DNA from: Rhodobacteraceae bacterium LNNU 3342
Lineage (GTDB): Bacteria > Pseudomonadota > Alphaproteobacteria > Rhodobacterales > Rhodobacteraceae
Reading direction: 5' to 3'
Assembly (NCBI GenBank): GCA_008711135.1
Contig: VUAW01000009.1
Span: forward strand, 1 to 64,000
Length of the DNA: 64,000 nucleotides
Shown: positions 48,052 through 51,775 of the stretch, piece after piece
Position numbering within the stretch: the first letter of the stretch is position 1
Layout: the number at the start of each line of letters is the position of its first letter
Made by a program: the position numbers and the translations under genes
Notes under the pieces: generated by a model
What the model saw: the letters and a program-made list of their open reading frames with translations, nothing else
The model's database searches: none
Told to the model about the DNA's origin: nothing

Positions 48052-48747
48052 TCAGGCCGCGCGGACAGTGCGCTGTTCGATGCGTTTTTCGTGCTTGCCC
48101 TGGATGATCCGGTGCACGTAGATGCCGGGCGTGTGGATCATGTCGGGATCAAGGCTGCCGACGGGGACGATCTCCTCGACTTCGGCCACGCAGATCTTGC
48201 CGCAGGTGGCGGCGGGCGGATTGAAGTTTCGCGCGGTCTTCCGGTAAACGAGGTTGCCCTGCGCGTCGCCCTTCCAGGCCTTGACAATTGACAGGTCGGC
48301 CACGATTCCGCGTTCCAGGATATAAGTCTCGCCGTCGAACTCCTTGTGCTCCTTGCCTTCGGCGATCACGGTGCCGACGCCGGTGCGGGTATAGAAGCCC
48401 GGAATGCCCGCGCCCCCCGCCCGCATCCGTTCGGCAAGCGTACCTTGCGGGTTGAACTCCAGCTCCAACTCGCCCGACAGGTACTGGCGCATGAACTCGG
48501 CGTTTTCACCGACATAGGAGGAAATCATCTTCCGCACCTGCCGCGTCTGCAGCAAAAGGCCCAGCCCAAAGTCGTCCACGCCCGCGTTGTTTGACGCAAC
48601 CGTCAGGTCCTTCACCCCCGCATCCCGGATCGCCGCGATCAGCAGTTCGGGAATGCCGCACAGGCCAAAGCCCCCCGCAGCGATCGTCATCCCGTCAAAC
48701 AGTACCCCTTCCAGCGCCTCGGCAGCGCTGCCACAGACCTTCTGCAT
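48052..48747 (-). CDS. scoA: 3-oxoacid CoA-transferase subunit A
   Basis: This 231-aa alpha subunit pairs with ScoB. The CoA-binding Gly-rich loop [12 protein letters not shown] (~23-34), [11 protein letters not shown] and the [15 protein letters not shown] region are family hallmarks. The start [12 protein letters not shown] at 48747 has AGGAGG about 10 bases upstream; an open frame to 48831 lacks this. The pair is transcribed toward the helicase gene, with only 49 bp between. Confidence 0.93.
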
Positions 48748-48827: not shown

Positions 48828-48858
48828 GCAACCCGGGACCTTGCGGTACCCGGGCTGC
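48828..48858 (-). terminator. Intrinsic terminator after the 24-residue peptide gene
   Basis: On the minus strand GCAGCCCGGG and CCCGGGTTGC form a stem (one G-T pair), extended by ACC/GGT and closed by a GCAA tetraloop. TTTCGTT follows. It starts 22 bases past the small gene's stop and lies between it and scoA. Confidence 0.7.
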
Positions 48859-48879
48859 GGTCTCGTCCTGTTCGTCGCG

Positions 48880-48954
48880 TCAGAGAACGCCGAACAGCAG
48901 CAGAAGAATGATCAGGCCGGCAGGAACGCCAAGCAGCCAAAGAATAATAGGCAT
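48880..48954 (-). CDS. Small 24-residue hydrophobic membrane peptide
   Basis: ATG 48954 is preceded by GGAG at 7 bases (AGAAGGAGAAACCC). The frame encodes a 24-residue peptide starting MPIILWLLGVP and ending ILLLLFGVL, i.e. a single uncharged membrane helix with a Gly-Val-Pro kink. A terminator follows 22 bases after the stop. It lies between topA and scoA on the same strand. The strong ribosome site plus a private terminator argue that it is a real gene. Function is unknown. Confidence 0.7.
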   Translation of the reverse strand: MPIILWLLGVPAGLIILLLLFGVL

Positions 48955-49039
48955 GGGTTTCTCCTTCTCGTCTGCCAAGTCAACGGCATGATCACGAAAG
49001 AGTTCCCCACGCGCCGGGTCAGCCCGACACTGTTGCCGA

Positions 49040-51658
49040 TCAGCCCTCCTCGGCGGCAGATGCGGACTTGGCGCGCGACTTCGCCGGGGCCTTGGTCTTC
49101 TTGGCGTCGGCCTTGGGCTTGGCCGTCTTTGCCGGAGCCTTGGCCTTGGTAGTCTTTGCCGCCTTGGGCTTGGCCTTGCCTGACTTGGCAGCCTTTTCAT
49201 TCACCAGCGCCACGGCCTGTTCGGGCGTGATGTCTTCCGGTCCCACATCGCGGGGAAGGGTGGCGTTGACCTTGCCCCATTTCACATAGGGCCCATAGCG
49301 CCCGGCCAGCACCTGAAGCGCGCCGCCATCGGGGTGTTCGCCAAGTTCACGCAAGGGTTCGGCCGTCGTTGCCGCCCGGCCGCGCGTTGCCTTCTGCGCC
49401 AATACCTCCACCGCGCGGTTCATGCCGATGGTGAAGACCTCGTCCACATCCGCCAGGTTGGCATAGACCTTACCATGCTTGACAAAGGGCCCGTAGCGGC
49501 CGATCGCGGCCTCGATCATCTCGCCATCCTCAGGGTGGGGACCGATCTGGCGCGGCAGGTTCAAGAGCATCAGCGCCCGGTCCAGGTCGATGCTTTCCAG
49601 GTCCCAGCCCTTGGGAATCGAGGCGCGGGGCGGCTTCGGTACTTCGGCCGTTGCCTCGCCACGCTGTACATAAGGGCCAAAGCGGCCGACGCGCAGCGTG
49701 ATCATCTCTCCCTGATCCTCGCCCAGGATCTTGCCGTCCAGCGCCGTGGCATCGCCCTCGCCAGGTGCGGTGAGGGGGCGGGTAAAGCGGCAGTCGGGAT
49801 AGTTGTTGCAGCCGATGAAGGCGCCCCCCGACCGGGCAGTCTTCAGGTTCAGCCGCCCCTTGCCGCAGGCCGGGCAGGTGCGGGGGTCGCCGCCATCTTC
49901 GCGCGGGGGGTACAGATGCGGGGCCAGAACCTCGTCGATCTTCTCCAGCACCTCGGTAATGCGCAGTTCCGAGGTTTCGGCGATGGCGGCCGAGAAATCA
50001 CGCCAGAAACGCGACAGCACCTCCTTGTAATCCCGCTCGCCCGCCGACACGTCGTCAAGCTGCGTTTCCAAGTCGGCAGTAAAGTCGTATTCCACATAGC
50101 GGCGGAAGTAGTTGGACAGGAAGATCGTGACCAGCCGGCCCTTGTCCTCGGGGATGAGCCGGTTCTTGTCCTTGCGCACATAGCCGCGGTCCTGGATCGT
50201 CGTGACGATGCTGGCATAGGTCGAGGGGCGGCCGATCCCCAGCTCTTCCATGCGCTTGACCAGCGTCGCCTCGGTGTAACGCGGCGGTGGCTGGGTGAAG
50301 TGCTGTTCCGGAGTGACGCCGCGCTTGTCGATCGCCTCGCCCTGCATGATCTGGGGCAGGCGGGCGCTGTCCTCGTCATCGCCGGTATCATCCCGGCCTT
50401 CCTCGTAGATCTTGAGGAAACCGTCGAACAGGACGACCTGCCCCGTAGCCCGCAGTTCCACCTGCGCGTCGGGGCTGGCGATATCAACCGTGGTGCGTTC
50501 CAGCCGCGCGGCGGCCATTTGGCTCGCGATGGTGCGCTTCCAGATCAGGTCGTAAAGCTTGCGCTGGTCGGCGTCGGTCACCTTCAGCTTGGACGGGTCC
50601 ACCGACATGTCGGTCGGGCGGATGCATTCGTGAGCCTCTTGCGCGTTCTTGGCCTTGTTCTTGTACATGCGCGGGCTGGAAGGCACGTAGTCGGCGCCAA
50701 AGCGCGACTTGATTTCATCCCGCGCGGCCATCACGGCCTCTGGCGCCATGTCGATGCCGTCGGTCCGCATGTAGGTGATGTAGCCTGCCTCATAAAGCCG
50801 CTGCGCAGCGCTCATCGCCTGCTTGGCGCCCATGCCGAACTTGCGGCTGGCCTCTTGCTGCAGAGTCGAGGTCATGAAGGGGGCCGAAGGGTTGCGGCTG
50901 GCGGGCTTCGCCTCCACCGACTTGACGCTCAGGCTGCGGGACGTAACTGCCTGCACTGCAAGCTCGGCGGCCTCGGATGTCGGGATGTCGAACTTGTCGA
51001 GCTTCTTGCCACCCAAAACCGTCAGGCGGGCTTCGAACTCCTGCCCGCGGGGGGTGACAAGCTGCGCCTTGACCGTCCAGTATTCCCGGGCGCGGAAGGC
51101 CTCGATCTCCATCTCGCGCTCAACGATCAGGCGCAGGCAGACAGACTGCACCCGCCCGGCCGATTTCGCGCCCGGCAGCTTGCGCCACAGAACGGGCGAA
51201 AGATTAAAGCCTACAAGATAATCCAGCGCGCGCCGGGCGAGGTATGCCTCGACCAGTTCCATATCCACGCTGCGGGGGTTCTTCATCGCCTCGGTCACCG
51301 CCGACTTGGTGATCGCGTTGAAGACGACGCGGCTGACCTTGGTGTCCTTCTTGATCGCCCGCGACTTGGCCAGCGCCTCTTGCAGGTGCCAGGAAATCGC
51401 TTCGCCCTCGCGGTCAGGGTCGGTGGCGAGGATCAGCTCATCATCGTTCTTGAGCGCGTCGGCAATGGCCCGGATATGCTTGCGGCTGTCGGCCGCGACT
51501 TCCCAAGTCATGTTGAAATCATGTTCGGGATCGACCGACCCATCCTTGGGCGGCAGGTCGCGCACATGCCCGTAAGAGGCCAGAACCGTGAAGTCGGAAC
51601 CCAGGTACTTGTTGATTGTCTTGGCCTTGGCGGGCGACTCGACGACGACGACAGCCAT
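49040..51658 (-). CDS. topA: DNA topoisomerase I
   Basis: This 872-aa type IA topoisomerase relaxes negative supercoils. The Toprim start is VVVVESPAKAKTINKYLG, the acidic triad region is ATDPDREGEAISWHL, and the active-site Tyr lies in GYITYMRTDG (~296). A C-terminal zinc ribbon (~592-622: CPACGKG to CNNYPDC) and further topo-C-terminal repeats (RFGPYVQ, RYGPFVKHGK, RYGPYVKWGK) follow. The tail is ~50 residues of Lys/Ala, typical of alphaproteobacterial TopA. ATG 51658 has AGAGGA 5 bases upstream; a reading to 51718 has no site. Confidence 0.97.
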   Translation of the reverse strand: MAVVVVESPAKAKTINKYLGSDFTVLASYGHVRDLPPKDGSVDPEHDFNMTWEVAADSRKHIRAIADALKNDDELILATDPDREGEAISWHLQEALAKSRAIKKDTKVSRVVFNAITKSAVTEAMKNPRSVDMELVEAYLARRALDYLVGFNLSPVLWRKLPGAKSAGRVQSVCLRLIVEREMEIEAFRAREYWTVKAQLVTPRGQEFEARLTVLGGKKLDKFDIPTSEAAELAVQAVTSRSLSVKSVEAKPASRNPSAPFMTSTLQQEASRKFGMGAKQAMSAAQRLYEAGYITYMRTDGIDMAPEAVMAARDEIKSRFGADYVPSSPRMYKNKAKNAQEAHECIRPTDMSVDPSKLKVTDADQRKLYDLIWKRTIASQMAAARLERTTVDIASPDAQVELRATGQVVLFDGFLKIYEEGRDDTGDDEDSARLPQIMQGEAIDKRGVTPEQHFTQPPPRYTEATLVKRMEELGIGRPSTYASIVTTIQDRGYVRKDKNRLIPEDKGRLVTIFLSNYFRRYVEYDFTADLETQLDDVSAGERDYKEVLSRFWRDFSAAIAETSELRITEVLEKIDEVLAPHLYPPREDGGDPRTCPACGKGRLNLKTARSGGAFIGCNNYPDCRFTRPLTAPGEGDATALDGKILGEDQGEMITLRVGRFGPYVQRGEATAEVPKPPRASIPKGWDLESIDLDRALMLLNLPRQIGPHPEDGEMIEAAIGRYGPFVKHGKVYANLADVDEVFTIGMNRAVEVLAQKATRGRAATTAEPLRELGEHPDGGALQVLAGRYGPYVKWGKVNATLPRDVGPEDITPEQAVALVNEKAAKSGKAKPKAAKTTKAKAPAKTAKPKADAKKTKAPAKSRAKSASAAEEG

Positions 51659-51775
51659 GGGAATCCTCTTGCAAACGGCGCGTGCTCTTAGGGCGCGCAA
51701 GATGTGGTGAGCGTGCACTGAATGTCAATGCACGGTTGCGGCAGTGCAGAAAGTGGGATATTTCATTGGATGGGC

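Follow-up and report, generated by a model that had tools for sequence, protein, structure and literature searches.

The window analysed here, a 64,000-nucleotide stretch of DNA from Rhodobacteraceae bacterium LNNU 3342, contains on its minus strand a 24-codon gene (48954–48880) that encodes a member of a family of very small peptides and is preceded by an EcfG-type promoter box. We read it, with a probability of roughly 0.78, as a self-contained stress-response gene, in which a short mRNA driven by EcfG would encode a membrane peptide and would end in a hairpin. A conserved coding frame, the promoter box and the joint presence of PhyR, NepR and EcfG in the genome are seen in the sequence and are described in turn below.

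A small gene between topA and scoA

The frame starts with an ATG at 48954, its stop codon ends at 48880, and its 24-residue product, MPIILWLLGVPAGLIILLLLFGVL, has no charged residue, in agreement with the original prediction of a very short frame with a hydrophobic product of the membrane type. The frame stays open in the 5′ direction as far as 49200 (106 codons), and conservation is confined to its last 24 codons, which start at the ATG preceded by the Shine–Dalgarno sequence AAGGAG (48961–48966, minus strand). The strong GGAG element that had been predicted is present at 48964–48961; its spacing to the ATG is 6 bases, rather than the 7 first given. Purine-rich sites like AAGGAG also lie 5′ of most other members of the family.

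On the 3′ side, the core of a hairpin with a GNRA-type loop (GCAA) occupies 48858–48828 on the same strand, its stem being lengthened by flanking pairs. The fold of 48882–48815 has an energy of −34.5 kcal/mol (z = −3.7), and 0 of 200 shuffles are as stable. The hairpin had been foreseen with a start 22 bases after the stop and a U-rich tail; the core begins 21 bases 3′ of the stop, and the U-tract is weak. Because of this weak U-tract, and because the hairpin is not among the entries of a simple terminator scan, we regard it as no more than a likely terminator.

Both neighbours, topA upstream (49040–51718; Topoisom_bac, E = 7e-128) and the CoA-transferase subunit gene scoA downstream (48052–48747; CoA_trans, E = 7e-77), lie on the strand of the peptide gene, and the peptide ATG is 85 bases past the topA stop. 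Such an arrangement would suit a frame that is a mere 3′ tail of the topA transcript with no promoter of its own, but the gap contains an EcfG box at the distance usual for the family, and none of the other loci compared has topA next to the peptide, which makes this explanation highly improbable. The original prediction had pointed to topA as the neighbour by which to find the peptide in other Rhodobacteraceae. Among the 42 loci compared (many of the other 40 being chance matches, and larger loci fetched later standing outside the comparison), topA and scoA occur in two, both from the window's own genome, and a conserved topA linkage of the peptide is rejected. What is kept in evolution, as far as these loci indicate, is the peptide together with its promoter rather than a place next to topA. 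The genus of the window comprises one genome only.

A family of very small peptides under purifying selection

The family consists of peptides of 23–26 residues that span the membrane once and carry the motif W-x-x-G-[VIA]-P, in which the G and the P are invariant and the W is nearly so. The window peptide matches it over the full length, lies within this size range, has the invariant G and P and starts at an ATG preceded by a Shine–Dalgarno site; its E-value of 2.6e-7 against a 20-member model was obtained with its own sequence as one of the 20, the window peptide being a row of the family models used to test membership. A plain protein search of 394 Rhodobacteraceae genomes (one per genus) gave 47 matches at E ≤ 0.5, in which true relatives are mixed with chance matches inside long proteins; the relatives in G383, G229 and G115 show 65–74% identity to the window peptide. 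The 20-member model (A1) matches 107 of the 394 genomes at E ≤ 1, and the peptide is found in 42 of the 394 genera at E ≤ 0.01, a count that omits G165 (a match inside a 473-codon frame) and weaker rows. Good matches are separate frames of 23–26 codons that start M-x-(x)-h-h-x-W, contain G-[VIA]-P, or in a single case G-L-P, and in most cases have a Shine–Dalgarno site. Among 50 fetched regions, four lack a W-containing frame, with Y instead of W in L073, L074 and L119; L092, taken from a match at E = 0.0155 and lying outside the 42 genera, has no convincing gene.

At the level of class and phylum, a wider model (A2) matches 69 of 385 Alphaproteobacteria genomes (E ≤ 0.02) and, in the phylum, 27 of 200 genomes (E ≤ 0.01), seven of the 27 being from outside Alphaproteobacteria. 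A pattern combining box, start and motif found at least 120 stretches in GTDB species genomes; the 80 loci fetched all contain frames (80/80), 79 of them of 23–26 residues and one of 13. These pattern loci were chosen by the box and are kept out of every enrichment count; among the matches listed are Ensifer, Sinorhizobium, Paracoccus, Bosea, Ancylobacter, Xanthobacter, Gemmobacter, Tabrizicola and Stella.

We note that the window's genome has a second copy of the family, MRGILLWLIGVPIPIIILIYLLF (L077:8998-9069; G000:C11:209804-209866), which starts with GTG and has a strict EcfG box 218 bases 5′; the frame preceding it looks DUF3309-like by eye. AT-rich small genomes of other families (L127, L151 and L003) have members with neither a NepR match nor a box, so that the peptide is retained there without an evident EcfG system.

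The peptide has no significant model match in Pfam or NCBIfam, and a Pfam scan of 28 family members gave no match, CydX/YbgT included (we take Pfam to contain a CydX model). In the published literature searched, no paper contains the peptide strings of the family, and none of the titles and abstracts listed for EcfG, PhyR or RpoE2 together with small proteins names it. The W-x-x-G-x-P peptides are a new family of very small, predicted membrane peptides of the stress regulon.

Substitution patterns point to purifying selection on the coding sequence. The pN/pS ratio is 0.20 over 57 independent pairs of close, non-overlapping members, a set fetched in part by a pattern that fixes some residues; the protein-found set alone gives 0.28 over 31 pairs, and the pattern-found set, from codon 13 to the end and outside the search pattern, gives 0.16 over 33 pairs. 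The window copy compared with four members of its subfamily gives 0.31–0.50, on just 23 codons each. Conservation of the frame in relatives, set beforehand as one test of the prediction, is thus observed together with selection at pN/pS of about 0.2–0.3. The evidence supports 48954–48880 as a genuine small gene that stands by itself and is missing from the annotation. Short hydrophobic frames are common, but a chance frame is already refuted by the family matches and the pN/pS ratios. It is also highly improbable that the locus is an EcfG-controlled small RNA with an incidental frame: the short unit and the strong hairpin would agree with this, as would the finding that 23 of the small RNAs annotated in S. 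meliloti have sigma-E2 boxes on their 5′ side (accessible text of PMC3616915), but conservation at the codon level, a nearly constant length and the Shine–Dalgarno sites argue against it. The peptide region matches no Rfam family, which speaks neither way.

An EcfG-type promoter box upstream of the peptide gene

A strict EcfG box, GGAACTCTTTCGTGATCATGCCGTT (GGAAC, 16 bases, CGTT), is located at 49006–48982 on the minus strand, 52 bases 5′ of the peptide ATG. The original description of a complete expression unit had the Shine–Dalgarno site, frame and hairpin right and missed this promoter; because of the box, the unit is to be lengthened to 49006. Among 70 members found by protein similarity alone, 30 have a strict box (GGAAC-N16/17-CGTT) within 120 bases 5′, compared with 7 of 317 starts of other genes at these loci, 53 of 5328 arbitrary 120-base windows (the members' own boxes included) and 0 of 70 members for each of six decoy motifs. 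A looser form, GGAAC-N16-18-GTT, is present in 38 of the 70, mostly 49–65 bases 5′ of the start; the motif published for S. melonis, as given in the accessible portion of the source, is GGAAC-N17-20-GTT.

The remaining 40 of the 70 members have no strict box within 120 bases. Where the near box is missing, some members have one 130–220 bases away or 5′ of the preceding gene, and many have none; ten members, from the two subfamilies with MPA or MGA starts, are without a box. The two scored members from outside Alphaproteobacteria have no box, and EcfG is described as exclusive to Alphaproteobacteria (PMC3892343, accessible text). In the window, whose genome encodes PhyR, NepR and EcfG, the box agrees with an EcfG promoter in its type, its internal spacing and its distance from the gene start, and the sigma factor would presumably initiate transcription from it.

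Association with PhyR, NepR and EcfG

The three regulators are encoded together in the window's genome, with a strict box 59 bases 5′ of phyR. This general stress locus (L308:3110-6608; G000:C11) comprises phyR (box at −59), nepR, ecfG and a probable sensor kinase, and on both flanks there are frames that look DUF1328-like by eye.

NepR is present in 187 of the 394 Rhodobacteraceae genera, namely in 36 of 42 peptide-positive genera versus 151 of 352 others (Fisher p = 1e-7; phylogeny not corrected for). The looser box follows the same division: among 41 Rhodobacteraceae members outside the MPA/MGA group, 27 of 35 from NepR-positive genomes have it versus 0 of 6 from NepR-negative ones (p = 7e-4, again with phylogeny not corrected for). 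In one of these six, G304, a strict box stands 5′ of the DUF3309 gene that precedes the peptide, so that this genome may own an unseen EcfG system. At the level of the class, NepR occurs in 38 of 67 peptide-positive genomes (69 positives less the own genome and the weak match G555) versus 9 of 80 chosen peptide-negative genomes, which include many small genomes, phylogeny being likewise uncorrected.

Physical proximity is seen as well: in G309, G670, G747, G740, G506 and G772, the peptide gene and one of the genes nepR, ecfG and phyR are about 2.2 kb apart or less. In G670 the peptide gene, which has a strict EcfG box at −59, is directly followed by a phyR-like gene of the same orientation (L312:2166-3271).

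Neighbouring genes and a polytopic membrane protein

Neighbour genes were called by codon-position score with a home-made gene caller, longest-frame calls being misleading in GC-rich DNA. The neighbours of stand-alone members vary, with a cold-shock protein, DUF3309, DUF892 and ECF sigma factors coming up repeatedly. ATP-binding-cassette proteins, at 31 loci, form the largest cluster, to which we give no weight because the superfamily is big.

At ten loci the peptide gene is on the same strand as, and at most 66 bases from, the gene for one family of polytopic membrane proteins, and seven of nine further loci have the same arrangement, three of them outside Alphaproteobacteria. The peptide may be either 5′ or 3′ of the polytopic gene. 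Members of this polytopic family (A3) include L320:1582-2505, L321:1580-2500 and L083:4278-4988, among others, in operons inside and outside Alphaproteobacteria. The proteins, of about 300 residues, have no Pfam model and are presumably 'PhnA-like'; an AlphaFold model (pLDDT 79, pTM 0.61) has no match in the PDB at E ≤ 0.001.

These tight operons with a single protein family, within and beyond the class and in both gene orders, suggest that in all lineages the peptide could regulate a single polytopic membrane protein or be its small subunit. We hold this to be a serious possibility, though one at less than even odds, since most members stand alone, the window copy included, and a search of the window's own genome, run without a positive control, gave no match to the polytopic partner.

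Copies in Sinorhizobium

In S. meliloti 1021, box and peptide (MKGIILWLMGVPLIVIILLYMFVF) are found on pSymB, and a DNA search of plasmid records identified pSymB copies in S. medicae and S. meliloti. In S. meliloti RCAM1115 the peptide gene is 3′ of exoT. The lack of annotation at the S. meliloti pSymB matches is uninformative in the two records checked, each of which has one annotated feature. In CP050561.1 (L329:1444-1632) a 62-codon hypothetical protein is annotated whose last 24 residues are the peptide; its annotated start is probably too far upstream, because with this start the gene would contain the EcfG box.

Most proteins of the EcfG response have no known role, and genes this short are easily absent from regulon lists. 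Of the S. meliloti genes induced through rpoE2, 150 of 202 are without predicted function, and 56 intergenic regions are rpoE2-dependent (both from the accessible text of PMC3616915). A protein of S. meliloti described in part of PMC10117765, SEP6, resembles the peptide in having fewer than 30 residues and a predicted membrane helix; it is reported there to be translated, to be in the membrane fraction and to be conserved in Hyphomicrobiales. By this description SEP6 could be the pSymB member, a lead based on the descriptions and not on compared sequences. Because the conserved peptide comes with an EcfG promoter of its own in tractable organisms such as S. meliloti 1021, it offers a direct way into the question of how the stress response is conveyed to the membrane.

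Proposed mechanism and comparison with known systems

Under stress, PhyR would release the sigma factor EcfG from NepR, and EcfG would initiate at the box at 49006–48982 to give a short mRNA with a leader of about 20 bases. We infer that the peptide would then be translated and inserted as one helix in the cytoplasmic membrane, the transcript ending at the hairpin. The most speculative step is that the conserved W-x-x-G-x-P face might pack against a polytopic membrane protein and tune it under stress; the ancestral partner may be the protein of about 300 residues with which other lineages combine the peptide in one operon. A protein partner is favoured because of the invariant G and P, the nearly invariant W and the operons, and our best guess is that the peptide is a helper of a polytopic membrane protein. 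A broader conjecture, which we consider rather doubtful, makes the family the smallest of the widely conserved products of the alphaproteobacterial general stress response, with an ancestral form that pairs with the polytopic protein and stand-alone copies that carry the response to the membrane. If true, this would supply a membrane-directed effector in a class whose general-stress effectors are largely unknown.

The main rival is a direct effect of the peptide on the membrane, of the kind exerted by E. coli YohP or TisB, by which it would lower the membrane potential and bring stressed cells into a quiet state. The 27-residue YohP is reported to be up-regulated under stress and starvation, to lower the membrane potential and to improve the survival of stress (accessible text of PMC12719787). 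Size, composition and stress control agree with such an action, and the likeness extends to the length, the M-x-I-I-L-W start (as in the window copy), the one hydrophobic span and the stress link. However, a specific partner is suggested by the three residues that vary little or not at all, G, P and W. YohP, which has no G-x-P motif, is by sequence not a member: it reaches 2.8 bits with the model of the family, compared with 11.7 bits for the best of 500 shuffled peptides. We therefore consider a YohP-like action unlikely, and prefer a self-contained stress-response gene with a protein partner for its product. YohP is not known to be under EcfG control.

Among small proteins, DUF3309 (PF11752) is similar in that its genes have EcfG boxes and adjoin family members in several loci, but it is about 50 residues long and of other sequence, and the peptide members match no Pfam family. 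DUF1328 and CsbD are further small proteins of the stress regulon. In sum, the family belongs to the known class of stress-induced small membrane proteins and is no new category.
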